A stretch of 20,500 bases of DNA from a virus. This document shows, in pieces, positions 437 to 18,671 of this stretch; position 1 is the stretch's first letter, and each line of letters opens with the position of its first letter. Location: IMG/VR virus record IMGVR_UViG_3300009788_000349, positions 1 through 20,500 of that record; one strand, given 5' to 3'. Under the pieces are notes generated by a model, which saw nothing but the letters and a program-made list of their open reading frames with translations, had not been told where the DNA came from and made no database searches. The position numbers were made by a program, and so were the translations under genes.

Positions 437-678
437 TACATTTTTGTAAGATTGATTTTTAAATCTGTAAAATCATTACTGAAATTTAAAAATGTTTTTT
501 TCAGCTAAAATTTGCCTGAAGATGGTCAAAAAAGGTTAAAATTGTTGTGAAATCTCACCAATACTAAAAGACCCCTCGTAAACCCGCTGTGGTAAAGGTT
601 GTAGGCGTTTCTCGTCCATTGGTTTTTTTATTGGTCTATGTTTCCCCTATATATAAAGGATTTTTTGCGAAGGTGCAT

Positions 679-715
679 AAAAAAGGGGATGTCAAATAAT
701 TGACATCCCCTTTTT
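679..715 (-). terminator. bidirectional intrinsic terminator ending the leftward operon
   Basis: A perfect 15-bp stem joins 680-694 to 701-715 with a 6-base loop. The GC part is GGGGATGTCA/TGACATCCCC, flanked by A5 and T5, so the U tract is present in either direction. It lies 3 bases beyond the last leftward stop codon (718-720), so ending the leftward operon is its most likely job. It may also stop incoming rightward transcripts. Confidence 0.9.
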
Positions 716-717
716 CT

Positions 718-813
718 TTACAGGTGATAAAAGAAAACGTTCCTTACGATCAGAACCGCGATACAGAATAGTATTATGATCCAGATAATCCGTTCAAAGT
801 GTTTGGTCTTCAT
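718..813 (-). CDS. 31-residue single-span membrane protein
   Basis: This short ORF has a consensus ribosome binding site (AGGAGG at 820-825) and starts MKTKHFERIIW. Residues 8-22 form one hydrophobic stretch (IIWIIILFCIAVLIV) with basic residues on both sides, so a single membrane span is likely. It overlaps the end of the ribbon-helix-helix frame by 20 bases and is the last gene before the terminator. Small membrane peptides of this kind are common in phage accessory operons, where some affect the host membrane or lysis. I do not recognise the family, and function is unknown. Confidence 0.6.
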   Translation of the reverse strand: MKTKHFERIIWIIILFCIAVLIVRNVFFYHL

Positions 814-967
814 CTTCAACCTCCTTATCAAATATTTCATAGCAGAGTACTGTAACCATATTTGAAAGAGATCGGTGTTCCTCCTTGGCACGTTCCCTTA
901 ATTTGGATAATAGTGAATCAGGTATCGAGATCTGAACCTGTTTTGTGATACCGCTTCATTTAACCAT
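794..967 (-). pseudogene. ribbon-helix-helix (Arc/CopG-like) DNA-binding protein with in-frame TGA at codon 4
   Basis: The frame begins at an ATG (965-967) behind a strong AAGGAGG, reads M-V-K, meets TGA (956-958), then continues open for 53 residues. The open part reads S-G-I-T-K-Q-V-Q-I-S-I-P-D-S-L-L-S-K-L and so on. The KQVQISIP beta strand followed by two helices (about DSLLSKLRERAKEE and SLSNMVTVLCYEIF) is the layout of Arc/CopG/MetJ-type repressors, which bind DNA as dimers through the strand. There is no other ATG, GTG or TTG between the stop and the conserved strand. It is either a recent nonsense mutation, a sequencing error, a readthrough product or a product of a non-standard start. 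Other genes here end in TGA, so wholesale recoding is unlikely. Confidence 0.6.
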
Positions 968-980
968 TTACACCACCTCC

Positions 981-1475
981 TTATTCCTCACATTCGACTT
1001 TCATCACTTCTTCAAATTTGCCTGTACCGACTTTCTTACAGTGTCGTGAATTACCAAACCATACTCGAAGTAAGAACTCTGGATAGATTACAGGGCTGTT
1101 ACTTTCTTCACCCATGTATTTATCTTTGAACTTAAATCGCCAGCCCTTCCATCCTATTTCGATATAGTCACCTTCTTTTATGAATTCAAATTTAGCGGAA
1201 TCTTTTAATTCTTCAACAATCCAACCGATATCTTTAATGATTTTATCATCCGGTGCAAGATAAAGGTTTAGAGACAATGCGTTAATAGTACCGGAGTTAA
1301 GGGCAAAGGTTAAATCCGAATGTCTTTTATTACCATCATGTTGATGATTTTCGGAAAACTTCTCAGCGTACTCATGAACGATCTCAAATAGTGGTTCATA
1401 CCGTTTAATTAGTTTCACGGTCTCAGCGTGTCGTTCAAACTCCTCTTTTAAGACTTTTTCATAAGTTAACATCAT
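981..1475 (-). CDS. hypothetical protein, 164 aa
   Basis: I do not recognise the family. The first 45 residues are predicted helical and charged (YEKVLKEEFERHAETVKLIKRYEPLFEIVHEY). The middle carries a His-rich patch (HQHDGNKRH), and the rest alternates strand-like segments such as YIEIGWKGWRFKFKDKY and FLLRVWF. It begins with two Met codons; the first (1473-1475) follows GGAG at a good distance and overlaps the upstream stop by four bases (ATGA), so the two are translationally coupled. No signal peptide or membrane span is visible. It is probably a cytoplasmic accessory protein of the leftward operon. Confidence 0.75.
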   Translation of the reverse strand: MMLTYEKVLKEEFERHAETVKLIKRYEPLFEIVHEYAEKFSENHQHDGNKRHSDLTFALNSGTINALSLNLYLAPDDKIIKDIGWIVEELKDSAKFEFIKEGDYIEIGWKGWRFKFKDKYMGEESNSPVIYPEFLLRVWFGNSRHCKKVGTGKFEEVMKVECEE

Positions 1476-1681
1476 TTTTTCTCCTTTCGCCTTGATGGCG
1501 GTACACGTATTTGAGTTTTATCCTTATCGTGTTGATGTTTCAGCCGGTAGACTCTACCATGCGGATAACACCGGGTTATGTGTTTTGGAGATTTAGTTTC
1601 GACAAGCCGTTTCTTAAGACGCTTGCCGCAATCACGACAAACCTTATCGGACAGCTCAGTATGTTTATGACTTTTTTTCAT
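1472..1681 (-). CDS. small basic Cys/His protein, 69 aa
   Basis: I chose the ATG at 1679-1681 because it follows GGAGG at normal spacing; a longer reading upstream lacks such a site and would run deep into the neighbouring gene. The protein is strongly basic, with CRDCG near residues 15-19, C38 and several His residues. It ends in a Lys/Arg tail (PPSRRKEKK). This looks like a short zinc-ribbon or nucleic-acid-binding protein, but four clear metal ligands cannot be assigned. It overlaps both neighbours: 17 bases with the gene before it and 4 with the gene after it. Confidence 0.7.
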   Translation of the reverse strand: MKKSHKHTELSDKVCRDCGKRLKKRLVETKSPKHITRCYPHGRVYRLKHQHDKDKTQIRVPPSRRKEKK

Positions 1682-1907
1682 CGAGCACCTCCAATTGTTT
1701 TGTGAGCCACGGTTCGAGTATTCCGTTAACTTTTTTCCATATTTCATGTGGGATAAAACAGCCAATGGCTTCCTTCAGGTTATCTTCGATTTGAAGCATG
1801 AGGGCTCCCTTTGTACCTTTTAGGTATGCTTCATGCATTTTTTTCTGAAGGGGTTTTAATATCCTCTGCTGTCCATTGGATAGTTTGAATCTGATCTCAA
1901 TACTCAT
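1665..1907 (-). CDS. hypothetical protein, 80 aa
   Basis: Translation starts at ATG 1905-1907 behind GGAGG. The N-terminus (MSIEIRFKLSNGQQRIL) is strand-like. The remainder is probably helical, with LKPLQKKMHEAYLKGTKGALMLQIEDNLKEAIGCF and a hydrophobic C-terminal helix around KVNGILEPWLTKQLEVL. There are no Cys pairs, membrane spans or known catalytic motifs. It overlaps the next gene by 17 bases, so the two are probably coupled. I do not recognise the family. Confidence 0.7.
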   Translation of the reverse strand: MSIEIRFKLSNGQQRILKPLQKKMHEAYLKGTKGALMLQIEDNLKEAIGCFIPHEIWKKVNGILEPWLTKQLEVLDEKKS

Positions 1908-1920
1908 AGTGCACCTCCTT

Positions 1921-2097
1921 TTATTTAATATATACCGGTAGTGATCTGTTATAGATAGACACCCCGCCTACCTTAACAATATCCACTTTTGTCGTTGAAT
2001 CCGCATGTACCGGTGTAATCACAAATGGTTTTATGGTTATCCATATAAGACAGATTGCGATCACGGTTAATATGAATTTTGTGTATAAGTCATGCAC
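1921..2097 (-). CDS. small single-span membrane protein, 58 aa, GTG start
   Basis: The best start is GTG at 2095-2097, eight bases after GGAGG. An earlier in-frame GTG at 2104-2106 abuts the same site and cannot use it. Residues about 8-24 (FILTVIAICLIWITIKP) form one membrane segment. The rest (about 35 residues, ending YNRSLPVYIK) is polar, with a possible short strand VDIVKVGGVSIY. It has no lipobox, so it is more likely anchored than lipidated. Function is unknown. It is the second membrane peptide of this operon, with the 31-residue one at its end. Confidence 0.65.
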   Translation of the reverse strand: MHDLYTKFILTVIAICLIWITIKPFVITPVHADSTTKVDIVKVGGVSIYNRSLPVYIK

Positions 2098-2111
2098 GTT
2101 TGTCACCTCCT

Positions 2112-2252
2112 TTATAAAGTTATTTCCGAGATCCGTTTCTCTATAGCTACAGCCTTTTTGAACAGTCTTTTTTTCTTGATCAGACTTTTTTCTTTTTCAT
2201 ACTTATCCTCGATCTTTTTGAACAGCCGTTTTAGCTTCGTTAGTTCATTCAT
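2112..2252 (-). CDS. 46-residue Lys-rich coiled-coil protein
   Basis: The ATG at 2250-2252 follows AAAAGGAGG and overlaps the upstream stop in an ATGA arrangement. The protein is almost entirely charged helix, with heptad-like spacing (LTKLKRLFKKIEDKYEKEKSLIKKKRLFKKAVAIEKRISEI). A short motif, RLFKK, occurs twice (residues 9-13 and 29-33), hinting at an internal duplication. It probably dimerises or binds nucleic acid. I do not recognise a family. It is easily missed because it is below usual length cut-offs. Confidence 0.6.
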   Translation of the reverse strand: MNELTKLKRLFKKIEDKYEKEKSLIKKKRLFKKAVAIEKRISEITL

Positions 2253-2464
2253 TCTGTGTGCCTCCTTTTAAAAAACCATAATCCATGACAAGAAGAACGA
2301 ATATATTTGAGACATCCTTTATCGCCAATTTTTGCTTTTTTGTTTCGAGTCCATCCTGTTAGCCATAAAAAAGTTCTGAGTGTTTGATGTGGCTTTTCCC
2401 AAGCATAAAGCTGATCACCATTTTCGGCTATTTCTTTTAATGTAACATTTTTAATTAGTTTCAT
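2249..2464 (-). CDS. hypothetical basic protein, 71 aa
   Basis: The ATG at 2462-2464 is preceded by AGAGG about four bases upstream and by a stronger GGAGG 13 bases upstream. A TTG four codons earlier would give a slightly longer product, so the start is uncertain. The sequence is rich in Trp and basic residues (KPHQTLRTFLWLTGWTRNKKAKIGDKGCLKYIRSSCHGLWFF). There is no membrane span or clear motif. It is the first gene downstream of the last intergenic hairpin of the operon, and its stop overlaps the next start. Confidence 0.6.
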   Translation of the reverse strand: MKLIKNVTLKEIAENGDQLYAWEKPHQTLRTFLWLTGWTRNKKAKIGDKGCLKYIRSSCHGLWFFKRRHTE

Positions 2465-2497
2465 TTTCCTCTTCAAACCTCCTTTTTTACGGTTAAT

Positions 2498-2556
2498 ATT
2501 AAACGCTCAATCTGCCCCTGAGTCCTCCAATTTCAGGAGCATGGTGAGGGTTTAAT
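2498..2556 (-). repeat. intergenic RNA hairpin R1 (GC variant)
   Basis: In the leftward RNA the inner arms are UGCUCCUGA (2533-2541) and UCAGGGGCA (2513-2521), with one U-G pair. Outer arms ATTAAAC/GTTTAAT (2498-2504 and 2550-2556) and CTCA/TGAG (2506-2509 and 2545-2548) extend the fold. The loop contains GGAGGAC. It is nearly the same as R3. Confidence 0.8.
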
Positions 2557-2574
2557 AAAATCTATAGTACGACA

Positions 2575-3039
2575 TTAGCCCCAAGAAGTAGCTTTATATT
2601 CATCGGTTTCGGTAATGATATCGTAAGCTAAAGCGTCACAAATTTTTTCAAGTTTTTTAAACAGATCAGTTTCCGGCACATCTCCTTCGTTACATTGATA
2701 TATCAAACATCGAATATTAGCGAATAGTTGATATTGATTTTCCATCGGTAAACAGGACTCGTATTTATAGTCATAACCGTCATTGATTCCATCCTCATAC
2801 CGTTGGCTAATTGCTTCGAGATTCATATCATAAAGTTGTCGAGCAAAAACGGCAGCTTTTGCTTGTATGTTAGGATGTAATACACGGCTACCGTTATCGT
2901 TTTCAATAACCCTGAGTGTTAATATAAATTTTGAAGCATGGGCAGTTGCAGAAAAAGCAAATGGGTCTTGATCAGCATAAGAAGCTAATGTTTCGGCTAT
3001 CTCATTAAATAATTTTGCATCACATAAAAATGCACTCAT
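2575..3039 (-). CDS. conserved phage/plasmid hypothetical protein, 154 aa
   Basis: The N-terminus MSAFLCDAKLFNEIAETL and the C-terminal block YQCNEGDVPETDLFKKLEKICDALAYDIITETDEYKATSWG resemble, from memory, a widespread family of accessory proteins on plasmids and phages that start MSAFL and end with a YQC-EG-VPE block. Their function is not established. The middle (QLYDMNLEAISQRYEDG) fits the same family. The start at 3037-3039 follows AGAGG. It lies between hairpins R1 and R2. No catalytic motif is visible, and the protein is predicted helical and cytoplasmic. The family match is recognition by eye. Confidence 0.75.
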   Translation of the reverse strand: MSAFLCDAKLFNEIAETLASYADQDPFAFSATAHASKFILTLRVIENDNGSRVLHPNIQAKAAVFARQLYDMNLEAISQRYEDGINDGYDYKYESCLPMENQYQLFANIRCLIYQCNEGDVPETDLFKKLEKICDALAYDIITETDEYKATSWG

Positions 3040-3071
3040 AATAAACCTCTTTTTGTTTGGTGTTCGTTAAG

Positions 3072-3115
3072 TCCTATCGAGTCCACGAACTTCGCGAGCT
3101 CATGAACTCTAAGGA
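3072..3115 (-). repeat. intergenic RNA hairpin R2
   Basis: In the RNA, GAGUUCAUGA (3100-3109) pairs with UUCGUGGACUC (3079-3089) using two U-G pairs. The flanks UCCUUA and AUAGGA also partly pair. The element begins two bases after the stop of the upstream gene. Confidence 0.85.
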
Positions 3116-3116
3116 A

Positions 3117-3332
3117 TTAAGATAAAAAAACTCTTTTAAATGTTGTCTTGTCAAAGTATGCGGATGAATTGAGTCCGTGTTTGACAGGACGTTTGCGGTA
3201 CAGTTCCCAATTATCCCCTGTAGAACGTACACCATAATTTTTCATGGTATCACCAAAAAATTTCATAGTTGATCGAGAGAAAAAGTACGGATTTGTTCCA
3301 TAGGTTAAACGTTTCAATTCTGCTGGTGTCAT
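3117..3332 (-). CDS. conserved phage hypothetical protein, 71 aa
   Basis: The pattern YFFSRSTMKFFGDTMKNYGVRSTGDNWELYRKRPVKHGLNSSAYFDKTTFKRVF is one I recognise as a short conserved phage/plasmid family of unknown role, rich in aromatic and basic residues. The ATG at 3330-3332 follows AAGGAGG by about 8 bases. It could bind nucleic acid, given its charge and size, but there is no defined fold motif. It is flanked by hairpins R3 upstream and R2 downstream, and co-occurs with the families on both sides. Confidence 0.75.
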   Translation of the reverse strand: MTPAELKRLTYGTNPYFFSRSTMKFFGDTMKNYGVRSTGDNWELYRKRPVKHGLNSSAYFDKTTFKRVFLS

Positions 3333-3374
3333 GATATTTTACCTCCTTTTTTTTGATGTTTAAGTCCTTATTCA

Positions 3375-3403
3375 TGCCCCTGAGTCCTCCACGTTCAGGA
3401 GCA
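3375..3403 (-). repeat. intergenic RNA hairpin R3 (GC variant)
   Basis: UGCUCCUGA (3395-3403) pairs with UCAGGGGCA (3375-3383) in the leftward RNA, including one U-G pair. The loop holds GGAGGAC, which could alternatively pair with the CTCC of the 5-prime arm. It shares the inner core of R1 almost base for base, but its outer arms pair poorly. Confidence 0.8.
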
Positions 3404-3414
3404 TTGATAAAAAT

Positions 3415-3816
3415 TTAAAGATTCTGTTGTAACTTGATGTTTCTTAACCACTTATTAGCGAATGTCGTATGTTCAGACTGTTTTTTCCTGTTGATTTTCC
3501 AATCACCATCGTTGTAGTCATAAAATAGAGACCGTTCATAGATTGGGGGGATTGCCATTTGAAACGACATCGGACAGACTGAACCGTTCTCACGTCTTAA
3601 AAAAGTCATTTCCGGATCTTGGCAAAGATCACCGTTTTGCTCAAAGTAGTGACACAGGCTGTATTCCGTTCCCATATCATAGGTATTAATCTTTTCGACT
3701 GAGAGCGGCATAAACGATTTGTTACAATTATCGATCTTGGTATGAGATTTGCCTTCCGGGATTGATTCAATAATCTTGTTAAAGATAGTAGTAGCCGGTT
3801 TGCTTAAAGTTCTCAT
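3415..3816 (-). CDS. hypothetical protein, possibly DUF6908-like, 133 aa
   Basis: The central block YSLCHYFEQNGDLCQDPEMTFLRRENGSVCPMSFQMAIPPIYERS resembles DUF6908-type phage and plasmid proteins, which carry HYYEQNGDL-DPEM and a Pro-rich strand after it. Function of that family is not established. The start at 3814-3816 follows AAAAGGAGG. The N-terminus (about 1-45) is less distinctive. It lies between R4 and R3 with neighbours that look like the same accessory-plasmid repertoire. The family name is a tentative recognition. Confidence 0.65.
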   Translation of the reverse strand: MRTLSKPATTIFNKIIESIPEGKSHTKIDNCNKSFMPLSVEKINTYDMGTEYSLCHYFEQNGDLCQDPEMTFLRRENGSVCPMSFQMAIPPIYERSLFYDYNDGDWKINRKKQSEHTTFANKWLRNIKLQQNL

Positions 3817-3854
3817 AAAAACCTCCTTTTAATTAATTGTTAATAAATCATAAA

Positions 3855-3897
3855 TCCTATTGAATCCACAAACCTCGCGAATTGTGGATTCTAAGGA
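3855..3897 (-). repeat. intergenic RNA hairpin R4
   Basis: GAATCCACAA (3882-3891, read on the minus strand) pairs perfectly with TTGTGGATTC (3862-3871), loop TTCGCGAGGT. Flanks are TCCTTA and AATAGGA. Confidence 0.85.
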
Positions 3898-3903
3898 ACT
3901 ATG

Positions 3904-4320
3904 TTAATGATCACCAACTGGCCCTTCTCGATAACCTTCAGATTCAACATACACATCAGGCCGACCCGGAACCGAAGTAACAATTGGTAAGGTGGCCGTA
4001 TAATACCGGATAGCTGATAACGTGACATCAAGATCTTTTTTCATGACTCTTTTATAAATCGGTTTTTTCCAATCATCCACATGAGCAACCCTATCAAAAG
4101 CCGTCTTTAACTCTTTTCTGGTATAACCTTCAAACATAGTTATACCTTTCTTGACCCAGCCGTCATCAAGGTCACAAAGAAAACTATCGATTATGGTGAT
4201 AGCGTTTATAACTTCTTCCTTGATTTTTTTATCGTTATAAAGATGATCTTTAACCCATGTCAGACGTTCAAGCGATTCCCTGATTTCTTTCCGGGCACGT
4301 TCTTTTCTTTTATTAGGCAT
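3904..4320 (-). CDS. conserved hypothetical protein, 138 aa
   Basis: The first 55 residues form a charged helical region (RKERARKEIRESLERLTWVKDHLYNDKKIKEEVINAITIIDSFL). A C-terminal domain begins around FEGYTRKELKTAFDRVAHVDDWKKPI, continues DLDVTLSAIRYYTATLPIV, and ends with YVESEGYREGPVGDH. The combination of a DWK-P-I segment, a Y-TATxP segment and the terminal EGYR-GP-GDH resembles a conserved family of plasmid/phage proteins of unknown role, from memory. Start 4318-4320 follows AAAAGGAGG. The gene sits between R5 and R4. Confidence 0.7.
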   Translation of the reverse strand: MPNKRKERARKEIRESLERLTWVKDHLYNDKKIKEEVINAITIIDSFLCDLDDGWVKKGITMFEGYTRKELKTAFDRVAHVDDWKKPIYKRVMKKDLDVTLSAIRYYTATLPIVTSVPGRPDVYVESEGYREGPVGDH

Positions 4321-4357
4321 GACAACCTCCTTTTAATTAGTTATTAATAATTGTAAA

Positions 4358-4401
4358 TCCTATAGAATCCACAACCCTTGCGGAGTCATGGACTCTAAGG
4401 A
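4358..4401 (-). repeat. intergenic RNA hairpin R5
   Basis: In the RNA, GAGUCCAUGAC (4385-4395) pairs with GUUGUGGAUUC (4365-4375). Eleven pairs form, three of them G-U. Three wobble changes without loss of pairing are strong evidence for RNA rather than DNA function. Flanks are UCCUUA and UAUAGGA. Confidence 0.85.
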
Positions 4402-4415
4402 ATTACAAGAACCCT

Positions 4416-4613
4416 TTACTTCTTTTCTTCTGGGTACTTGTAAACGTTAACGCCGATAACGACATCACCCTTGCCTGTGTCAAAGGACTGATTACCTCTT
4501 GTGGAAGCAAGTACAATAGTTTTCCCGGATTTAGAAGGACTGCCCTTCTTCTTAAGGTCAACCGTGATAGTCATTACGTTCTTTTCATCAATAGCGACTT
4601 TAACATTATCCAT
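4416..4613 (-). CDS. small conserved phage protein, 65 aa
   Basis: The sequence VMTITVDLKKKGSPSKSGKTIVLASTRGNQSFDTGKGDVVIGVNVYKY matches a short beta-rich family common in phages and plasmids, which I know by the pattern GxPSxSGKTxxxASTRGNQ. Its role is unknown. The start (4611-4613) follows GGGAGG. No Cys or membrane segment is present. It lies between hairpins R6 and R5. A single beta-domain fold is likely but cannot be confirmed here. Confidence 0.7.
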   Translation of the reverse strand: MDNVKVAIDEKNVMTITVDLKKKGSPSKSGKTIVLASTRGNQSFDTGKGDVVIGVNVYKYPEEKK

Positions 4614-4645
4614 AATAAAACCTCCCTAATATAAAATAGTTGTGA

Positions 4646-4711
4646 AAGCTTTATAGCCCTCATTGTGTACACGAACTGTGTAATTCGTGTACACTGGCGG
4701 GTTACAAGCTT
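4646..4711 (-). repeat. intergenic RNA hairpin R6 (divergent arms)
   Basis: GTGTACACGAA (4665-4675) and TTCGTGTACAC (4684-4694) pair perfectly over 11 bases. Outer AAGCTT copies (4646-4651 and 4706-4711) and CCC/GGG blocks replace the TCCT/AGGA flanks of the other copies. Position and geometry are kept although the bases differ. The outer arm overlaps the upstream stop codon. Confidence 0.75.
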
Positions 4712-4968
4712 AGAAGTGGTATGTTTTCAATGAATCGATCTCCATCCTCTTGTAAAGCCTCATCATAAAGTTTTGAAATAGTTCTCTGACGAAGTTTCAT
4801 CGGTAACTGCATTTCAATAACCATATTCATCATCGATTGAATGTTTTTTCTGATTTCTGGACACTTTGGAGAACAATTATCGAGTTGTTGCCCAAACGTT
4901 GATTCTAATAGACTTAATTTTTCCTCGATCACGTAAATGGCTTCAATTATGTCATTAAAATTTTCCAT
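4702..4968 (-). CDS. hypothetical helical protein, 88 aa
   Basis: The predicted fold is mostly helical, with FNDIIEAIYVIEEKLSLLESTFGQQL in the first 30 residues and IRKNIQSMMNMVIEMQLPMKLRQRTISKLYDEAL after it. A CSPKC pair (residues 32-36) is present without partner cysteines. The start (4966-4968) follows AAAAGGAGG. I do not recognise the family. It is transcribed between the Cys-rich gene before it and the beta-rich 65-residue gene after it, and hairpins lie on both sides. Confidence 0.65.
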   Translation of the reverse strand: MENFNDIIEAIYVIEEKLSLLESTFGQQLDNCSPKCPEIRKNIQSMMNMVIEMQLPMKLRQRTISKLYDEALQEDGDRFIENIPLLSL

Positions 4969-5009
4969 GTCAAAACCTCCTTTTGTTTGTTAATATTAGC
5001 ATTCATAAA

Positions 5010-5054
5010 TCCTATTGAATCCATGAACTCTACGAAATTCATGGATTCTAAGGA
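5010..5054 (-). repeat. intergenic RNA hairpin R7
   Basis: GAATCCATGAA (5038-5048 on the minus strand) pairs perfectly with TTCATGGATTC (5017-5027). This is the nearest copy to a consensus. Flanks are TCCTTA and AATAGGATTTA. Confidence 0.85.
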
Positions 5055-5074
5055 ATTAAGAATTTTAGACTTTA

Positions 5075-5308
5075 TTAGTCCTTTACACATGATCCATCGT
5101 CATTGTGTACTATCCATGCCTGATTACAGTTAGGACAGTATTTACTATCTTTTTCTTCTCTCCGGCAGATTACACACTTTTTACCGACTTTTGTTACGTG
5201 TCTTCGACCACACTCGCACTTTACTATCCCGAATGGGTTTTTATTAAAGGATCTTTCAACCTCACCAGCTCCGCTTATAGTGTTTCTTTCCCTTGTATTA
5301 GCCTTCAT
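5075..5308 (-). CDS. zinc-ribbon protein, 77 aa
   Basis: Seven Cys residues are arranged C31-x-C33, C45-x2-C48, C58-x2-C61 and C74, enough for one zinc ribbon and perhaps two sites. The N-terminal 25 residues are polar and basic. Small proteins like this usually bind nucleic acid or support another protein; the partner is not visible. The start (5306-5308) follows AAAAGGAGG, the usual site for this operon. It sits directly downstream of the HNH gene and between hairpins R8 and R7. Confidence 0.7.
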   Translation of the reverse strand: MKANTRERNTISGAGEVERSFNKNPFGIVKCECGRRHVTKVGKKCVICRREEKDSKYCPNCNQAWIVHNDDGSCVKD

Positions 5309-5340
5309 GGTAAAACCTCCTTTTGTTTAGCGTTTATAAA

Positions 5341-5384
5341 TCCTATTGAGCTCACGAATCCGGCAGATTCATGAACTCTAAGGA
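5341..5384 (-). repeat. intergenic RNA hairpin R8
   Basis: GAGUUCAUGAAUC (5366-5378) pairs with GAUUCGUGAGCUC (5348-5360) over 13 pairs, two of them U-G, with a 5-base loop. Flanks are UCCUUA and AAUAGGA. It lies just after the stop of the HNH gene. Confidence 0.85.
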
Positions 5385-5385
5385 A

Positions 5386-5727
5386 CTATATTCTAAAACT
5401 TCCGTTTAGTTTCCGTCTTGTTCTACGTCTTACACGTTTGCTGATCTTGTCGGTATCGACACCCTGATATCGTAACCACTTAAAGAACATTCGTATAGAC
5501 TTTGAACCCTTTGTTGAATTACAGGCTTTACAGGCAGTCACAAGGTTACGACTTCCGTTAGTTCCGCCAAGCTCTTGTGAAAGGACGTGATCCAAAGTTA
5601 AATAGCTTTGATTTATAATTGTTTTATTACAGTATGAACAGGAATAATGATCACGTTCATAGATAGCCGTTCTACGAGTAGGTGTAATCCATTTTCCTCC
5701 GTTATTGGCACAATTTCCTTCACACAT
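5386..5727 (-). CDS. HNH endonuclease, 113 aa
   Basis: An HNH motif is complete: C30-x2-C33 (CSYC), the catalytic D46-H47 in LTLDHVLSQELGG, N61, then C66-x2-C69-N70 (CKACN). This is the usual beta-beta-alpha metal fold with a structural zinc held by four Cys. A basic tail (SKRVRRRTRRKLNG) probably helps DNA binding. The size fits free-standing phage HNH nucleases that nick or cut DNA during packaging or act as mobile endonucleases. It is the first sizeable gene of the leftward operon, starting at 5725-5727 behind AAAAGGAGG, while the opposite operon also opens with an HNH gene. Confidence 0.9.
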   Translation of the reverse strand: MCEGNCANNGGKWITPTRRTAIYERDHYSCSYCNKTIINQSYLTLDHVLSQELGGTNGSRNLVTACKACNSTKGSKSIRMFFKWLRYQGVDTDKISKRVRRRTRRKLNGSFRI

Positions 5728-5765
5728 AATAACCTCCTTTTAGTTTGATAGTTAATATTCATAAA

Positions 5766-5809
5766 TCCTATAAAATCCACAAAGTATAAAACTTCATGGA
5801 TTTTAAGGA
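5766..5809 (-). repeat. leader RNA hairpin R9
   Basis: AAAAUCCAUGAAG (5792-5804) pairs with CUUUGUGGAUUUU (5772-5784): 13 pairs including U-G and G-U. It lies in the mRNA leader ahead of the HNH gene rather than between two genes. The downstream segment ATAGGATTTATGAATATTAAC matches the other copies. Confidence 0.85.
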
Positions 5810-5823
5810 ATTACGAAAAAAAA

Positions 5824-5831
5824 GGAGGAGG
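5824..5831 (-). promoter_or_regulatory. CCTCCTCC leader segment complementary to ribosome binding sites
   Basis: The leftward RNA reads A7-CCTCCTCC-T8 here, just upstream of R9. It is complementary to the AAAAGGAGGTTTT ribosome binding sites that head nearly every gene of the operon. It could pair with the first of them and lower translation, or simply be fortuitous. On the plus strand it looks like a ribosome binding site, but no start codon follows at a usable distance. Confidence 0.35.
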
Positions 5832-5916
5832 TTTTTTTATATCTTAAATCGAATTAATTCTTGATCTCAATTATCAGTCAATTTGAGGACATACTGGAAA
5901 AGATATTAAATAATTA

Positions 5917-5934
5917 CTTGTACAATGTTACAAG
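5917..5934. promoter_or_regulatory. dyad containing a TGTTACAA box
   Basis: CTTGTA (5917-5922) and TACAAG (5929-5934) form an 18-base dyad, and its right half contains TGTTACAA (5926-5933), the same box as in 80-436. It lies about 220 bases downstream of the leftward promoter. A binding site for the same regulator is plausible. Confidence 0.45.
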
Positions 5935-6015
5935 ATACAAAATATCTAACAGAAGTTACTTATTTAATTCCGTCTTAAGATTTCAATTTGTCAAGGTTAG
6001 TGTAGAATTACAGAA

Positions 6016-6144
6016 TTATTGAAACTTCCGACTACTGGTTATTGTTTCGTTAACATTACTTGTGAAATCAATCGTGGAAACATTGTCCATCTCTTTTCGT
6101 ACTCTGTTCAATTGATTCCGGTATATGGTGAGAGGTGTTTTCAT
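6016..6144 (-). CDS. possible leaderless 42-residue leader protein
   Basis: The ATG at 6142-6144 is about 10 bases beyond the -10 element of the leftward promoter, so its mRNA would have almost no 5-prime leader, and no ribosome binding site precedes it. The frame codes for a hydrophilic peptide beginning MKTPLTIYRNQLNRVRKEMD and ending TITSSRKFQ. It has no recognised domain. Leaderless starts are known in phages (lambda cI from PRM). It may be real, a regulatory leader peptide or chance. The next gene starts almost 300 bases further on. Confidence 0.35.
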   Translation of the reverse strand: MKTPLTIYRNQLNRVRKEMDNVSTIDFTSNVNETITSSRKFQ

Positions 6145-6154
6145 TGGAAACTTT

Positions 6155-6183
6155 AATATAGTTACAAATGTTTATCTTGTCAA
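6155..6183 (-). promoter_or_regulatory. sigma70-type promoter of the leftward operon
   Basis: On the minus strand the sequence reads TTGACA (6178-6183), a spacer of exactly 17 bases, and TATATT (6155-6160). The -35 is consensus and the -10 differs at one base. The spacer contains TTTGTAAC, the core of the repeated box at 80-436, so a repressor bound there would block RNA polymerase. Transcription should start near 6148. Confidence 0.75.
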
Positions 6184-6184
6184 G

Positions 6185-6300
6185 CTTTTTTTTTAAAAAA
6201 AGTTAAAATAGTTTTAAAATAGTGTATAACTATCTAAAATAACTATAAATAAAAATTAAAAAAAGATTTTATTAAAAATAATTTAAAAAATTAGTTGAAT
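6185..6300. other. extreme AT tract with short repeats
   Basis: This stretch is almost all A and T, with a TAAAATAGT repeat (two copies near 6204 and 6215), an inverted relative AACTATCTAAAAT and long A or T runs. It lies between the leftward promoter and the GGACGT repeats. It could be an easily melted segment of a replication origin or UP-element DNA for the leftward promoter; nothing here decides between them. No gene is present. Confidence 0.45.
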
Positions 6301-6321
6301 TCCTTAAAATACCGTGTTAAA

Positions 6322-6541
6322 GGACGTTAAATTGATTTTAACAGGACGTTTTAACTGAATACGTGGGGAAACATGGACTTTTTTAAGATACCTTTAAAAT
6401 CGATCTCAGGACGTTTAAAGGGGAAAGGACGTGAAATTGATTTTAAAGGGGACGTTTTAAAAAACCCATATAAAGGTACACGTTTTTGTTGAAAGTACCC
6501 TTAAAATCGATCTTACGTCCTTTAAAATCGAATTTTAAAGG
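6322..6541. repeat. GGACGT boxes alternating with TTAAAATC(G/A)AT boxes
   Basis: GGACGT occurs at 6322, 6344, 6409, 6427 and 6450, and inverted as ACGTCC at 6515-6520. Between them lie ATTGATTTTAA (6331-6341 and 6436-6446) and its inverted form TTAAAATCGAT (6395-6404 and 6501-6510). The pairs repeat as a unit of about 20-25 bases just before the first rightward gene. They look like operator or iteron arrays. One ACGTCC also lies at 35-40. Confidence 0.65.
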
Positions 6542-6557
6542 TATTCATAACGATAAA

Positions 6558-7364
6558 ATGAAAAATTCTGACATTATAAATTTAAAAAAAGCTGGATGGG
6601 ATATATCAGGGATATGTTTATCTAAAGGTGGAAAACTATATAAAAATAAACATCGAGTTGTACCGATTATTTGTGATAGGTGTACTGAAAAGGGATGGAC
6701 AAGTTATTATAATTATAAAAAATCAAAGTATCATTTTTGTTCTATTAACTGTTATCAAAAAAGTGATCAGAAAAAAAATACGTGTAGAAAAGCGGGGAAA
6801 AATAAAGCAAGAATAAAAAGATTGATTGCTCGAAATAAGACTTCTGAAATGAGAAAAAAAGTAAGCAAGAGTCTGAAGAAAAGAAAAAAACTATTAAAGA
6901 ATAATTATCATTCAGAAAAAACAAAAATTAGAATCGGTATAGCTACAAAGAAAAGATGGAAGGATCAGAAATTTAAAATACTTCCTGTCTTAAATAAAAA
7001 CGCAAAACAGATGCAAGACAAAACGTTATATGGACACACATTTAGGAAAATAAAAAATCAATATAAAAAAATAATTAAACGTTGTATTTTCTGTAATAAA
7101 AAAACCGATATTGATTTAAGCGGCCATCATATTTTGCCCGTAAGGTTTGGAGGAATAACCGATATTTTAAATATAATTTTATCATGTAGAAGTTGTCATA
7201 AAAAGATAGAAACGTTTGAATGGCGATTTGCAAGAAAATTATACGATACTAAAATGTTTTCAGAAACGGAAATATGGTGGATAGTATACTCTATATTTAA
7301 TCAAATATTAAGAAAAAAAATAATGGATAAAACAGGAGGTAAGATATGTCAACTATACCGCTAA
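6558..7364 (+). CDS. HNH homing-type endonuclease with N-terminal Cys motif, 268 aa
   Basis: The C-terminal HNH domain shows C176-x2-C179 (CIFC), the catalytic H190-H191 in LSGHHILPVRFGG, N205 and C210-x2-C213-H214 (CRSCH). The N-terminus has a second possible zinc site, C39-x2-C42 and C61-x3-C65. The centre (about 85-140) is very Lys-rich, and SEKTKIRIGIATKKRWKD resembles NUMOD3-type DNA-binding repeats of homing nucleases. I chose ATG 6558; a TTG reading 24 codons earlier would translate the GGACGT repeat region. The ribosome site is weak. The gene is more A-rich than its neighbours, which with its type suggests a mobile insertion. It overlaps the ParB-like gene by 19 bases. Confidence 0.85.
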   Translation: MKNSDIINLKKAGWDISGICLSKGGKLYKNKHRVVPIICDRCTEKGWTSYYNYKKSKYHFCSINCYQKSDQKKNTCRKAGKNKARIKRLIARNKTSEMRKKVSKSLKKRKKLLKNNYHSEKTKIRIGIATKKRWKDQKFKILPVLNKNAKQMQDKTLYGHTFRKIKNQYKKIIKRCIFCNKKTDIDLSGHHILPVRFGGITDILNIILSCRSCHKKIETFEWRFARKLYDTKMFSETEIWWIVYSIFNQILRKKIMDKTGGKICQLYR

Positions 7365-8032
7365 GATGTAAATATACCAAACTTATTTCTATTGAAAAAA
7401 TAAAACCGTTTCAGGCTAATCTTAAGAGTATCGATGAACAGGATTTGATTAAATTAAAAAGATCGATACTTAAATATGGTTTTTCGTTTCCAGTTTTTGT
7501 ATGGAATGGAAATATATTAGACGGACATACAAGGTTGAACGCAGTTAAAGCCTTGGTTGAAGAAGGATATAAAATTAAAGGCATTCCAGTTGTAGAGATA
7601 GAAGCTAAATCAAAGAAGGAAGCAGGAGAAAAGTTACTTCTTATAAATTCTAAATATGCAAAAATAACGGATGAAGGTCTTTATAATTTCGTAAATGATT
7701 TTGGTATTGATTTAAAGGATATGCCGGAAATCAGCTTACCTGAAATTAAAATCGATAGTTTTATTGAAAACTGGTTTAAAGAAGAAGTAACGGAATCAAC
7801 TGATGATATGATAGAAACACTAAAACCGAATGAAATTATTAGTCGCGAAATAAAAAAGTCTGTATTCTGTCGCTATTGGGGCAAGACTTACCCTACACGG
7901 CTTAGAACAAGATCATGCTCGGAAGCAACTCGAAGAGAAGACCTCGTTAAACGAATTACAAGATCGCAGGAATTAGTAAATGAACAATTGATGAAAATAG
8001 ATAAAGAAAAAATCTCTATTAAATCAGGCTGA
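7346..8032 (+). CDS. ParB-like nuclease-domain protein, 228 aa
   Basis: Residues 13-100 form a ParB/Srx N-terminal domain: ISIEKIKPFQANLKSIDEQDLIKLKRSILKYGFSFPVFVWNGNILDGHTRLNAVKAL. The GHTRLNA segment (60-66) corresponds to the GxHRxxA nucleotide-binding loop. In phages this domain often precedes a DNA methylase or acts as a CTP/ATP-dependent DNA-binding or nuclease module; no methylase motifs follow here. The last about 60 residues (from KKSVFCRYWGKTYPTRLRTRS) are basic and unlike the rest, so the C-terminus may be divergent or altered by a frameshift. Start 7346 follows AGGAGG, inside the end of the HNH gene. Confidence 0.8.
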   Translation: MSTIPLRCKYTKLISIEKIKPFQANLKSIDEQDLIKLKRSILKYGFSFPVFVWNGNILDGHTRLNAVKALVEEGYKIKGIPVVEIEAKSKKEAGEKLLLINSKYAKITDEGLYNFVNDFGIDLKDMPEISLPEIKIDSFIENWFKEEVTESTDDMIETLKPNEIISREIKKSVFCRYWGKTYPTRLRTRSCSEATRREDLVKRITRSQELVNEQLMKIDKEKISIKSG

Positions 8033-9050: not shown

Positions 9051-9380
9051 ATGGCAAAAGAAAACAGAAATCGAAACTGTAAACTATATCCTAAGTGTAT
9101 GGATATAGCTCTAAAGAACTACGAAGGTGGATTCACGTGCGAAGGTTGTGATGGGAGAACACCTTTGTTCGTGTCTTCTTCTAAGGCTGCTAAACAAAAA
9201 GATAAAGGAAAAAGTATGAATGAAAAATTAGACCCTAATAAGAACAGGCTGTATGTAGACTTCAAAGACTATCTTGAAGTGTATGAAAAAATAATTATCG
9301 AAGCTGATGAACAATGCAGATCCGTACCTAAACAAGTGATCTTCTGGTGTAAGGAAGGGATTAAAAATATTAAGAAATAA
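9051..9380 (+). CDS. Cys-rich protein, 109 aa
   Basis: The N-terminus carries C10, C16, C30 and C33 (CKLYPKC...FTCEGCDG), suitable for one zinc site. A Ser/Lys-rich linker follows (SSSKAAKQKDKGKS), then a helical C-terminus (YVDFKDYLEVYEKIIIEADEQCRSVPKQVIFWCKEGIKNI). An internal ATG at residue 56 (MNEKLDP) follows AAGGAAAAAG and could start a shorter product. Function is unknown. It follows its neighbour by six bases. Confidence 0.65.
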   Translation: MAKENRNRNCKLYPKCMDIALKNYEGGFTCEGCDGRTPLFVSSSKAAKQKDKGKSMNEKLDPNKNRLYVDFKDYLEVYEKIIIEADEQCRSVPKQVIFWCKEGIKNIKK

Positions 9381-10138: not shown

Positions 10139-11422
10139 GTGGGCTACACAGTTGATTTTAAGAAAGAAGCGTTTAACAAGGTTTACTTACCATTATTGGA
10201 GAACGAGACTAGAGTACAGATCATATTCGGTGGAGCTTCAGCCGGTAAGTCACATTTTGCAGCACAACGCTGTATTCGGGATCTTTTAAAAGGTGGGAGA
10301 AATTATTTAAACGTTAGAAAAGTCGGTAAGTATATTCGCGGATCAACGTTCAATGAACAGACGAAAGCTATCCGGCGGTACGGTTTAGATGATCTTTTTA
10401 AAATACATTCGACTAATATGTCTATTACTTGTGTTAATGGGTATCAGAGTATTAGTGCGGGTTTGGAAGATGTTGATAGAATAAAGAGTATAACACCGGA
10501 GAAGGGTATCGTTACTGATATCTTAGTTGAGGAAGCTACTGAGACCAGTAGAAACGATATTACACAGCTTAAGAAACGACTCAGGGGCTTGACAGGCGGT
10601 TTAAAGAAACGAATAACGTTGTTATTTAATCCGATATTTCAGAGCCATTGGATATTTAAAGATTATTTCAAAGGCTGGGTAGACGGTAGTACAGAGTACC
10701 GGGATGACAGTCTTCTTATTTTAAAAACCACTTACAAGGATAACCGCTTCCTTGAACCTGATGATATTAAGGAGCTCGAAGATGAAAAAGACGATTATTT
10801 TTATCAAGTCTATACTTTGGGAAATTGGGGTATTCTCGGCGGTCTTATTTTTAATAATTGGAAGACGGCAGACATCCTCAATGATCCTATATTAAAAACA
10901 TTCGATCATTTTTACAATGGTCTTGATTTTGGATATACTGCACATCCGACAGCTTTTAATCGGATGTACTACCACAGAGGGTTACAGCGATTATACATTG
11001 TTTACGAGTATCACGAAAAGAACGTTACCAATGATGTAATTGCAAGTGACCTGAAGCGGCTTATAAATTCCGGTGATCTAATAACCTGTGATTCTGCGGA
11101 GCCTAAGAGTATCAGGGAACTGTGTGATCATGGGTTAAACGCTGTTGGAGCTAAGAAGGGTAAGGGTTCAATCAATCACGGTATTCAATGGCTGAAACAG
11201 CAAGAGATCATAATTGATAAGACGTGCCAAGAGACTATAAACGAGTTTCAGTTGTATCATTTTTTAAAAGACAAATATGGGGAGACAACTAACGTGCCGG
11301 CAGATCGAGACAATCATCACATTGACGATATTAGATATGGAACGGAGCCGTTATCGGAGTTTAGTGATAATGTTGATATAGGTTCCGGTGATGATATGGA
11401 GTCGGTAGAGTCAGACTGGTAA
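10139..11422 (+). CDS. terL: terminase large subunit (PBSX/terminase-3 type), 427 aa
   Basis: This is the ATP-driven packaging motor with nuclease. The ATPase half shows Walker A GGASAGKS (31-38), Walker B DILVEE (127-132) and a coupling motif LLFNP (161-165). The RNase H-like nuclease half has D263 in NGLDFGYTAHPTAF, D318 in TCDSAEPKS and D396/D397 in HHIDDIRYG, the usual three acidic positions. Length is normal for the family. The GTG start (10139) sits two bases after the small subunit stop, so translation is coupled. It would act with the portal fusion encoded just downstream. Confidence 0.95.
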   Translation: MGYTVDFKKEAFNKVYLPLLENETRVQIIFGGASAGKSHFAAQRCIRDLLKGGRNYLNVRKVGKYIRGSTFNEQTKAIRRYGLDDLFKIHSTNMSITCVNGYQSISAGLEDVDRIKSITPEKGIVTDILVEEATETSRNDITQLKKRLRGLTGGLKKRITLLFNPIFQSHWIFKDYFKGWVDGSTEYRDDSLLILKTTYKDNRFLEPDDIKELEDEKDDYFYQVYTLGNWGILGGLIFNNWKTADILNDPILKTFDHFYNGLDFGYTAHPTAFNRMYYHRGLQRLYIVYEYHEKNVTNDVIASDLKRLINSGDLITCDSAEPKSIRELCDHGLNAVGAKKGKGSINHGIQWLKQQEIIIDKTCQETINEFQLYHFLKDKYGETTNVPADRDNHHIDDIRYGTEPLSEFSDNVDIGSGDDMESVESDW

Positions 11423-11632: not shown

Positions 11633-13842
11633 ATCCAATAAGCAAGTTCGTTAATCTATTTAAAACACAACCGGCTGAGAGTCCACCTATGGGCGAAGTC
11701 GGTTTCGATGATTCCATACTTTATGGTGGTCGAGATTTTCCAAAGTATTCGCCGGATGACCTGATTATCAAAAAGGGTAACGGTGTATATCGTAAGATGA
11801 TGCTGGATGAACAGATCAAGGCTGTTCTTCGATTTAAACAAGACGCTATCCTGTCACGGCCATACTATTTCGATACCGAAGATACACCTGATGAAGAAGT
11901 TGAATACATGGAAGAAATCGCTGATTTCTTTAACTTCATGATTAAGCAGATCAAGGGTAGTTTCACGGATAATCTTACCGGTATTCTATCAGCACTTTAC
12001 AACGGATTTTCCATAACCGAAAAGATATATCAACCTATCGAGTACGAAGGCCGTACTATGTGGGGTCTGAAAGATATGAAGGTTAGGCCTTTTGATACCT
12101 TCCTGAATGGTTTTATGGTGGATGAACACGGCAATCTTTTTGGGTTGGAACAGAATGTTACTGCTGCTATAGTACCGATACCTATTGAGAAGGTTATTCA
12201 TTTCGTACACCAGCCTGATATCGATCTTCATTACGGTGAATCTGATTTAAGAGCGTGTTACCGGTCTTACTGGTCTAAGGATATTGTTATCAAGTTTCAG
12301 AACATTCATCTTGAACGTCATGCCAGTGGCTTTATATGGGCTCAGGTAGAAGGTGGGTTAACTGATCCTCAGAAGGTTAAACTACAAGCTTTATTATCGA
12401 ATATGTCGGCTAAGAGCAGTGTTCACGTTCCTTCTAACGTTAAGTTGAACAGTTTTCAACCGTTAAGAACAGACGCTTACGATAGGGCTATTGCTCAACA
12501 CGACAAGTCGATTGCAAAAGCTATGCTTGTTCCTAATCTTTTGGGAATGTCGGAACAGGGTAGTACTGGAAGTTACGCCCAGAGTGAGGTACATTTTAAG
12601 GTTTTTCTTTGGGTACTCGATCATATCACGAACAGGCTGACAGAGACCTTGAATGAACAGGTATTCCGAGAGCTCGCTTACTGGAACTTCGGAACTAAGA
12701 CTTTTCCGTGGTTTTCGTTTGAGCCGTTGAGTGATGATCAGAAGACGAATCTCGCTAAATCATGGGGAGAACTTATTTCTAAGAATGCTGTTACCAAGTC
12801 AGACAGTGATGAGGTTCATGTAAGACGATTGATGGGATTCCCTGATAAATCCGAAGACGCTGAAGAAGAACCTGAAACCGGAGATGATGTTGAAGATATG
12901 ATTGAGATACCGGATCAAGAGGACTGGATCTCGGCAAAGGGTAACTTGTCACAGTACATTCGTCAGGAGTTGCAGAACAAGCAATGGTTACGGCGTGTCA
13001 ACTTTGCTAAGATCGAGGGGACGCTTGATAATCACGATACGGTTATATCTGATGGTTTAGCAGATTCCATGGCGTTAGCTCGACAGAGTATCGAGAAGCA
13101 GATAATCAGTATAGTCGGTAATAGGTCATTAGGCAATGTCAAGCCGAAAGAAGTTGAGAATATTCGTATTCCAAAAGGTCAGCTCGTTACGATGCGGAAA
13201 CTCTTAAGAGTCAATCTAAAGTCCGTCCTTGATAACGGTTACGCTACAGCACAGAAGGAGCTCCCTTCAAAAAAGCTGGTTAACATATCACCTAACATGG
13301 ATAAGACACAGGCTGAGCGTTTTCTATCTTCCAAAGCCATGAAGATCACTGGTGTCTTGGATCAAGATGTTCTGAATGCAGTGCAACGGATATTAGAGAA
13401 CGGTATTAAATATGATAGTACACTTGACGAGGTAATCCGGTCAATGGCTTATGATACACAGTTGAAATCGATGTTACCTGAGTATGACGCTGCCGGTAAA
13501 GCGACTAACATCCCTGCTCGTTTGGAAAACATAGCTCGGACAAACACGTCAGATGCTATCAATCAAGGTCGTATGGCTCTATTCAGTAGGGAAGAGTTCA
13601 AGGGTTTTATAGTATCGTATGAGTATAGTGCAATACTTGATAGTCGGGTAACAGACGTGTGTGAGTCGTTACACGGCAAGATTCGGAAACAGTGGGCTGA
13701 ACGTACACCTCCGAATCATTATCAATGTAGGAGTTTACTTGTGGCCGTGACGGCTATTGATGATTGGAGTGGTAAGGAGAACAGGATTCCGGTAAAGGGT
13801 ATGCCCCATGCCGGATTCGGGAAGGAACTTTTAGAACAATAG
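11629..13842 (+). CDS. portal (Mu gp29/DUF935-like) fused to Mu F/SPP1 gp7-like minor head protein, 737 aa
   Basis: Residues about 40-405 match DUF935 portal proteins: LDEQIKAVLRFKQDAILSRPYYF, FTDNLTGILSALYNGFSITEKIY, GWG-like loop at MWGLKDM, and LVPNLLGMSEQGSTGSYAQSEVHF. The portal forms the ring through which DNA enters the head. An acidic linker follows (about 408-432). Residues about 560-712 carry a phage head morphogenesis domain: ARTNTSDAINQGR (636-648), D-RVTDVCESLHGK (671-684) and PPNHYQCRS (694-702). In Mu these are two separate proteins, gp29 and gp30/F. I see no stop or frameshift between them. The fusion would fix one F copy per portal subunit, unless it is cleaved. Confidence 0.9.
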   Translation: MNPISKFVNLFKTQPAESPPMGEVGFDDSILYGGRDFPKYSPDDLIIKKGNGVYRKMMLDEQIKAVLRFKQDAILSRPYYFDTEDTPDEEVEYMEEIADFFNFMIKQIKGSFTDNLTGILSALYNGFSITEKIYQPIEYEGRTMWGLKDMKVRPFDTFLNGFMVDEHGNLFGLEQNVTAAIVPIPIEKVIHFVHQPDIDLHYGESDLRACYRSYWSKDIVIKFQNIHLERHASGFIWAQVEGGLTDPQKVKLQALLSNMSAKSSVHVPSNVKLNSFQPLRTDAYDRAIAQHDKSIAKAMLVPNLLGMSEQGSTGSYAQSEVHFKVFLWVLDHITNRLTETLNEQVFRELAYWNFGTKTFPWFSFEPLSDDQKTNLAKSWGELISKNAVTKSDSDEVHVRRLMGFPDKSEDAEEEPETGDDVEDMIEIPDQEDWISAKGNLSQYIRQELQNKQWLRRVNFAKIEGTLDNHDTVISDGLADSMALARQSIEKQIISIVGNRSLGNVKPKEVENIRIPKGQLVTMRKLLRVNLKSVLDNGYATAQKELPSKKLVNISPNMDKTQAERFLSSKAMKITGVLDQDVLNAVQRILENGIKYDSTLDEVIRSMAYDTQLKSMLPEYDAAGKATNIPARLENIARTNTSDAINQGRMALFSREEFKGFIVSYEYSAILDSRVTDVCESLHGKIRKQWAERTPPNHYQCRSLLVAVTAIDDWSGKENRIPVKGMPHAGFGKELLEQ

Positions 13843-15317: not shown

Positions 15318-16028
15318 ATGATAACACTTAAAACAATTACAACTATCGAGCTATCGAATATCTGTCAGCTCAAATGTAGGTACTGTATCAACCGGCTACT
15401 TGTAAAACACGGCAGTCGAAAGTTAGGGATCATGGAAGAAGCTATTTTTACAGAATCTTTAGAGCTATTAAACAGCTTGTGTGTTGCCGGTACACAGAAA
15501 GAGGTTAATCTGAACGGTAACGGTGAGAGTTGTCTTGATCCGAATCTACCGGAACGTGCCAAACGTGTAAAGGAAGTAATGGGAGATCGCCATGTACAGT
15601 TCTGTACTAACGGAATGAATATGACACGGGCATTAGCTCAGGCTTTAAAGGATTCGGGTATTGATAGAATCGACATATCTGCTCATTCACCGTTTCATGC
15701 AAGACGGGCTCTTGAATGTTTTGCTTCTGTGAAGATGCCAACTATGTACGCTCTCGGTGTATTGCTTGCCCCTCATAACTGGGCGGGTCAGCTTGAACTT
15801 GAAAATCAGTATTTTTATTTACCGAGTATTCCCTGTACTCCGTTAATCGAAGGTCGTGGTTATATATCGAGGGAAGGTAATATCTCGCCGTGTTGTTATG
15901 ATTACAGGGATTTAGGAAAGTTCGGATCGGTACTTGATGGAGATATTTTAGATCGGGAGATCAAGCCCTTTATACTGTGTAAGACTTGTCATCAAAATAT
16001 ACCGGAGGAAATACAAAATGAAAAATGA
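15318..16028 (+). CDS. radical SAM/SPASM-like enzyme 1, 236 aa
   Basis: The radical SAM cluster motif is C16-x3-C20-x2-C23 (CQLKCRYC), which binds the [4Fe-4S] that cleaves S-adenosylmethionine. NLNGNGE (64-70) is the GGE-like motif and CTNGMNM (96-102) a conserved strand. C-terminal cysteines C173, C192-C193 and C221-x2-C224 form a short SPASM-like pattern for a second Fe-S cluster. Such enzymes usually act on peptides or proteins, sometimes on sugars. It is short for the family (often 350-450 residues), as phage versions are. It is paralogous to the gene at 18866: all Fe-S cysteines align. Strong AAGGAGG precedes the start. Confidence 0.9.
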   Translation: MITLKTITTIELSNICQLKCRYCINRLLVKHGSRKLGIMEEAIFTESLELLNSLCVAGTQKEVNLNGNGESCLDPNLPERAKRVKEVMGDRHVQFCTNGMNMTRALAQALKDSGIDRIDISAHSPFHARRALECFASVKMPTMYALGVLLAPHNWAGQLELENQYFYLPSIPCTPLIEGRGYISREGNISPCCYDYRDLGKFGSVLDGDILDREIKPFILCKTCHQNIPEEIQNEK

Positions 16029-16209
16029 AATTACATTACAAGATTCATGGGCTGATTATGATGAAGCTGATCCCATAAGTGACATTAAAGATGGAATTAA
16101 ATTGTTGGGAGGTGGGAAAAAGTGTTTGGGTATAACGATCAAAGGAGCGGTAGAGATTGAATGTCTTAAAAAAGAAGGTCTTATAAAATATAAAGAAAAT
16201 GAATCTTAA
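16018..16209 (+). CDS. hypothetical protein, 63 aa
   Basis: The gene overlaps its neighbours on both sides by 11 bases, so it is translated within the radical SAM-methyltransferase unit. The sequence is acidic at first (DSWADYDEADPISDIKDGIKLL) and then strand-like (GITIKGAVEIECLKKEGLIKYK). That middle part might be a small regulatory or binding domain. Its overlap with both enzymes suggests a partner or subunit, but I recognise no domain. Confidence 0.6.
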   Translation: MKNEITLQDSWADYDEADPISDIKDGIKLLGGGKKCLGITIKGAVEIECLKKEGLIKYKENES

Positions 16210-16867: not shown

Positions 16868-16875
16868 GAAACAGT

Positions 16876-17046
16876 ATGAAGAAATTAGGTCAATTAAATT
16901 GTACTATAAATGCTGTGAGTTTAGGTATTAAAGTAACAGTTGAAATTTGTATAGAGTGTGGAGGTGTTATTACTCCAAAAAATATTAGTAATATTTATCT
17001 TAAATGTAAGTGTGAGAAAAGGAATCATGCCAGCATACGAAGTTGA
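16876..17046 (+). CDS. 56-residue zinc-ribbon protein
   Basis: C25-x2-C28 (CIEC) and C44-x-C46 (CKC) form a ribbon. The pattern VEICIECGG...NIYLKCKCE is close to the N-terminal ribbon of the FkbM protein that follows (IRICMNCNA...IYFECTCS). The start (16876) follows AGGA. It overlaps that FkbM gene by 20 bases. It may be a duplicate of the fused ribbon, either its ancestor or a free-standing partner. Shorter than common gene-calling limits. Confidence 0.65.
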   Translation: MKKLGQLNCTINAVSLGIKVTVEICIECGGVITPKNISNIYLKCKCEKRNHASIRS

Positions 17047-18669: not shown

Positions 18670-18671
18670 TA

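Follow-up and report, generated by a model that had tools for sequence, protein, structure and literature searches.

Hairpins repeated between the genes of a phage leftward operon and their likeness to the T7-group RNase III site R1

The leftward operon and its nine hairpins

We analysed a viral stretch of 20,500 nt (positions 1 to 20,500 of IMG/VR virus record IMGVR_UViG_3300009788_000349; hereafter the window), in which a leftward operon carries an RNA hairpin at each of nine gene boundaries. A second record, IMGVR_UViG_3300028610_001702 (G001; 23,171 bp), is at least 99.9% identical over the compared stretches and extends the window. The operon runs from a promoter-like site to a terminator-like hairpin (Table 1) and consists of small genes, mostly of unknown kind, among which an HNH nuclease, DUF6908 and a weak DUF7447-like match are recognised; the HNH gene (5386-5727, minus strand) comes first. 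The terminase is of the PBSX type, relatives of its TerL at 28-59% identity occur in genome bins of anaerobes, Clostridia among them, and in Marinitoga phages, and no DNA similarity of the window to phages or plasmids was found.

The hairpins, numbered R9 to R1, form on the minus-strand RNA between 5810 and about 2496. Each lies 3' of a stop codon (R9, in the leader) and 5' of a GGAGG or AGAGG ribosome site, and the boundaries of the genes beyond 2476 are without them, as an earlier reading of the sequence (the original prediction) had described. That reading treated the nine as a single family; they constitute instead three groups: type A (R9, R8, R7, R5, R4 and R2); R6, which keeps the 13-bp stem on different feet; and type B (R3 and R1), a separate pair with 74% mutual identity that match the other copies only at background level. 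In type A, an outer stem of 4-7 bp is followed by a 1x1 mismatch (U.U, but U.C in R2), the pairing UCCU:AGGA, a 2x3 internal loop (UA/NAU in six of six copies), a stem of 13 positions and a loop of 4-6 nt, for a length of 54-61 nt including the outer stem. The constant stem length, the internal loop and the stem beyond the mismatch had been overlooked; the UCCU and AGGA arms, ascribed to most copies, belong to the six type A hairpins and are absent from R6, R1 and R3; and the segment AATATTAAC, also described as shared, is exact in R9, R7 and R1 and present elsewhere only in looser forms. Type A copies start between -5 and +12 nt from the stop codon and end 26-33 nt 5' of the start codon. Type B folds into 8-10 bp with GGAGG within an 11-nt loop and has outer stems of its own; GGAGGAC is exposed in this loop in both R3 and R1, and their outer stems are unlike yet pair.

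Table 1. Positions of the hairpins and associated features in the window
Feature	Positions	Strand	Description	Model score
Promoter-like site	6155-6183	-	TTGACA-17-TATATT, ahead of the operon; by consensus match alone	
R9	5758-5817	-	Type A with outer stem, core 5766-5810; leader of HNH gene	63.0 bits
5' module of R9 (example)	5728-5813	-	Hairpin, AU-rich linker, AAAAGGAGG; type A modules span 80-90 nt	
R8	5335-5390	-	Type A, core 5341-5385; TAG stop of upstream gene inside 5' foot	65.3 bits
R7	5002-5062	-	Type A, core 5010-5055	65.2 bits
R6	4665-4694	-	Diverged; same 13-bp stem, other feet	19.1 bits (model positions 7-41)
R6 neighbour	4643-4662	-	Second short hairpin, adjoining R6	
R5	4351-4408	-	Type A, core 4358-4402	67.7 bits
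R4	3849-3903	-	Type A, core 3855-3898; single U.U mismatch in stem	61.7 bits
R3	3365-3413	-	Type B; AUGCUCCUGA/UCAGGGGCAU and outer stem UUUUUAU/AUAAGGA, GGAGG in loop	
R2	3067-3120	-	Type A, core 3072-3116; TAA stop of upstream gene inside 5' foot	66.5 bits
R1	2496-2559	-	Type B; 9-bp inner stem 2513-2541 and outer stems CUCA/UGAG, UUAUUAAA	
Terminator-like hairpin	681-714	-	Perfect stem, then T run; far end of operon	

Selection on the leftward RNA and spread of the module

The hairpins are selected RNA structures of the leftward transcript. The operon holds six uninterrupted 13-bp stems against 0.07 expected. Among the seven stems of type A and R6, double-sided changes occur at 8 of the 13 pairs, with 100% of the aligned cells paired, a level of covariation reached by none of 500 shuffles; the shuffle ignores the relatedness of the copies, yet every slid register drops to half or less. 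A selected structure had been predicted from compensatory variation, with a missing excess of compensating pairs named as its refutation; the excess is present. The statement that the arms always pair holds for 90 of the 91 stem positions (the exception is the U.U in R4), and the case for G-U pairs that form only in the leftward RNA is stronger than was claimed, with 14 G-U against 0 A-C over the seven stems. The covariance model of type A scores 62-68 bits on the minus strand versus 13-27 bits on the plus strand; from this difference and the 14:0 ratio we conclude that the leftward RNA is under selection. Pairing of the outer stem is better within copies than between them (permutation P 0.025-0.044), and the feet and internal loop of type A are nearly invariant while the stem varies.

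The type A hairpin is part of a larger 5' module. From the TAA or TAG ahead of the foot to the Shine-Dalgarno (SD) sequence, the copies are about 75% identical, versus 59-60% in the flanks (the preceding sequence and the coding starts), and the genes behind the modules are mutually unrelated. Because R9 occupies a leader, the module belongs to the downstream gene. Of the functions first proposed, a cassette boundary applies insofar as one module is common to unrelated genes, and in no further sense.

Scans of the viral collection with type A and type B patterns found multiple copies only in the near-identical G001, all other matches being single and at chance level. Covariance-model searches gave no credible match in 21 single-hit, 80 TerL-related genome and 20 further loci, nor in 52 that carry a homologue of the 3117-3332 gene. 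No comparable series of hairpins was seen in the TerL-related phages G002, G003 and Marinitoga camini virus 1; Rfam gave no match at the gathering score, the sub-threshold matches being to a snoRNA and pre-microRNAs of similar shape. The genes at 3117-3332 and 2575-3039 have homologues, in unchanged order and separated by one further gene, in two very distant phage contigs, L169 (10001-11042) and L218 (10001-10907). L218 is without the type A hairpin and L169 has a different repeated leader, CCCCTAGCAAGGGGAGGAG, indicating that the element belongs to the lineage of the window and not to those genes; as a test of the prediction on relatives, which had named hairpin-free boundaries as a refutation, absence in phages this distant is weak. 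The L169 leader has four matches with at most three mismatches (9320-9338, 10241-10259, 10596-10614 and 11796-11814), against 0.01 expected.

Likeness to a T7-group RNase III site and competing explanations

As a yardstick for intergenic processing hairpins we used folded T7, and we searched both strands of phage genomes, with filters off, using a model of the six type A copies alone; the E-values are rough. In T7 (40 kb), the top match genome-wide is 3107-3142 (plus strand; 20.0 bits, E 0.018), at the 0.7/1 boundary; in T7M (38 kb), it is 2913-2948 (plus strand; 26.4 bits, E 5.6e-4), within the annotated 'RNase III recognition site R1' (2907-2955), that is, a site for ribonuclease III (RNase III). 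Because this homologous site is annotated in T7M, the T7 match is read as a cutting site; the cut in T7 R1 is presumably at nt 3138, inside the internal loop. A weaker T7 match (5858-5889, plus strand; 9.2 bits) overlaps the site R1.1, cut at nt 5887. The same search gave nothing better than E 3.7 in lambda and nothing better than E 1 in a Marinitoga phage.

The likeness to the T7 and T7M site R1 is specific. The aligned parts are CUUA 5' of the stem and AAUAGG(A) 3' of it, and T7M R1 folds with its elements in the order of type A, around a stem of 9 bp versus 13 bp. Six T7-group phages keep UAUCUU(A/C)-stem-NAUAG at R1 (one T7M variant at the first base pair position) with a covarying stem, and the window counterpart is UUCCUUA-stem-NAUAGGA. 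Five of the six window copies contain the motif CUUA, 8 or more bp, NAUAG; T7 has it a single time, against 0.007 expected, and 5.1 Mb of other strand sequence has none. In the reverse search, a model made from R1 of the six T7-group phages placed R2 (the best-ranked copy), R8, R4, R7 and R9 among its top seven matches in the window. Sites annotated in T7M start -7 to +18 nt from the stop codon and end 19-49 nt 5' of the start codon, distances that overlap those of type A. The type A helix (13-position stem, 4 bp and 4-7 bp) spans roughly two turns; for single-strand cutting by the Escherichia coli enzyme, a 12-bp stem with a tetraloop suffices (PMC8708148), and R1.1 RNA is cleaved into fragments of 47 and 13 nt (PMC4858673). 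Patterns from other T7 RNase III sites (TTTATGATATTCACTA, TTTATGATTATCAC) were not enriched at the window copies, and a pooled local-alignment excess is not relied on. R6, R3 and R1 have other feet and loops and are without the shared internal loop; we assign only the six type A copies to the T7 type.

Of the functions first listed for the hairpins, the processing site is favoured by the matches in both directions, the antiterminator is unsupported, and the translation insulator survives as a rival. We judge, at a probability of about 0.62, that the leftward polycistronic mRNA is processed by RNase III at T7-R1-like sites formed by the type A hairpins, probably by R6 as well and perhaps by R1 and R3. 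Several observations weigh against this. The family is known from one phage, represented by two near-identical records; T7 and T7M are related and count as a single observation; and the CUUA motif was defined only after the T7 match had been seen. Taken singly, the reverse matches score weakly (12-16 bits, E 0.04-0.7; R5 only 9.1 bits), an 88-kb control reaching up to 15.5 bits under the same model. Moreover, the stem is 13 bp long versus 8-9 bp in T7-group R1 sites, and three of the nine hairpins do not share the internal loop.

A rather unlikely alternative is that the hairpins are translational operators, at which a phage or host protein binds the RNA by its feet and internal loop to repress or activate the whole operon together. 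Near-invariant feet and loop beside a variable stem, the 26-33 nt that separate every type A copy from a start codon, and a module that follows the ribosome site, not the gene, would all suit an operator; however, RNase III likeness accounts for the same conserved elements, no RNA-binding protein was recognised among the scanned gene products, and no SD, R9 excepted, is predicted to be masked by a hairpin. Protection of messages or insulation of translation is unlikely as well: 5' hairpins might shield mRNAs cut elsewhere by another nuclease from a 5' exonuclease, as a hairpin 3' of an RNase Y cut shields the product from RNase J1 in Bacillus subtilis (PMC11780869), or might block ribosome run-on, in keeping with hairpins directly after stop codons and with TerL relatives that belong in part to Bacillota. 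Such generic functions need no invariant internal loop or feet and leave the sequence likeness to T7 R1 unexplained.

The remaining alternatives fare far worse. The 5' foot UUCCUU is complementary to AAGGAG of the SD in most copies, and the first gene's SD at R9 is predicted to be masked, though by a separate leader stretch; a metastable switch between the two pairings is nevertheless very improbable and was rejected on energy, the alternative being 4.1 to 11.3 kcal/mol less stable in six of six type A copies and the altered SD of R2 (AAAGAGG) lacking a compensating change in the foot. Still less credible is an element acting as DNA, whether dyad operator, cruciform or folded single-strand recombination site at a cassette boundary: inverted repeats do recur at the boundaries of unrelated genes, but the G-U:A-C ratio and the far higher minus-strand scores place selection on the leftward RNA strand, and no integrase was recognised in the sequence read. 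Intrinsic terminators or attenuators, which would also be stable hairpins after stop codons, can be dismissed almost entirely, as no T run follows the hairpins and 600-7500 holds one weak terminator-like site only, the second hairpin beside R6.

If the type A hairpins are RNase III sites, a transcript from a putative promoter near 6160 would fold one hairpin after each stop codon, and the host RNase III, an enzyme that to our knowledge is nearly universal in bacteria, would bind the helix of roughly two turns and cut it at the asymmetric internal loop; as in T7 processing sites, the 3' side (NAU|AGGA) is the most likely position. The products would be mostly single-gene mRNAs, the upstream message keeping the stem as its 3' end and the downstream message beginning about 25-40 nt 5' of its start codon or ribosome site. 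In R9, the leader stretch CCTCCTCCTTTT is predicted to mask the first gene's SD, and a cut there would separate the two and free the SD; cleavage, enzyme and effect on expression are all inferred. In the same leader, AACCTCCTCCTTTTTTTT (5818-5833, minus strand) is complementary to AAAAGGAGGTT of the first gene, and full masking is predicted.

Processing of this kind would mean that T7-R1-like production of single-gene mRNAs extends more widely than thought, reaching boundary after boundary in a phage whose terminase is of another type. The six paralogous copies, whose stems vary freely around a fixed internal loop, would then amount to a natural experiment on RNase III recognition; what the enzyme reads is still poorly understood according to a review (PMC8708148). 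Possible, though doubtful, are two bolder readings: that hairpins targeted by a phage protein form an undescribed RNA regulon setting translation of the whole operon, or that the RNase III of a distant host phylum reads the internal-loop bases that are read in enterobacteria, unrelated phages having converged on or exchanged one signal.

Other observations concern the rest of the window. The HNH protein has its top NCBIfam matches, far under the cut-offs, in the HNH parts of IscB and Cas9d. Upstream of a rightward HNH gene, 6300-6550 holds a cluster of repeats, both inverted and direct (GGACGT, ATCGATTTTAAAG), that may mark an origin or a control region; a plus-strand match to the type A model at 6300-6346 (17.4 bits, E 0.21) is regarded as chance. 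Several TTTGTAACA and TGTTACAAA repeats in AT-rich non-coding DNA at 72-440 may be operators or an origin. On the plus strand, 15318-16028, 16199-16867 and 18827-19570 are predicted to encode a radical SAM protein, a methyltransferase-like protein and a second radical-SAM-like protein; these genes (15318-19570) sit 3' of the packaging genes, which is unusual in a phage.

Comparison with known systems

Cluster K mycobacteriophages carry extended start-associated sequences (ESAS), imperfect inverted repeats of 17 bp that recur ahead of small, mutually unrelated genes, each linked to a 13-bp SAS where the gene starts (PMC3203893). Position ahead of unrelated small phage genes is what they have in common with the window hairpins. 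They differ in the repeat and its tie to SAS, and the SAS sequence GGGATAGGAGCCC was not seen at the nine boundaries. The leader of L169 is likewise a repeated hairpin-like element beside the SD of several genes, but its 4-bp stem abuts the SD directly and has no sequence likeness to the window hairpins.

Among phages, processing by RNase III between genes is best known from T7 and its relatives. The sites R0.3, R0.5, R1.1, R1.3, R4.7 and R18.5 of T7 and T7M resemble the window in having one hairpin per early gene boundary, an asymmetric internal loop and the same spacing to stop and start codons; their internal-loop bases differ (ACUC/UUUAUGA), R1.1 matching only weakly. The closest counterpart is R1 of the T7 group (T7, T7M, AP5, CarlSpitteler and others). 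The window differs from it in having six near-paralogous copies in one operon, at which cleavage is predicted only, and in a PBSX-type terminase, with no T7-like gene seen. Both hairpins lie between a stop codon and the next ribosome site, and both comprise an outer stem, a 1x1 mismatch, 4-5 bp, a 2x3 internal loop of UA (UC)/NAU, a stem and a small loop, with the bases CUUA and AUAG in common and a stem that covaries around a conserved internal loop.

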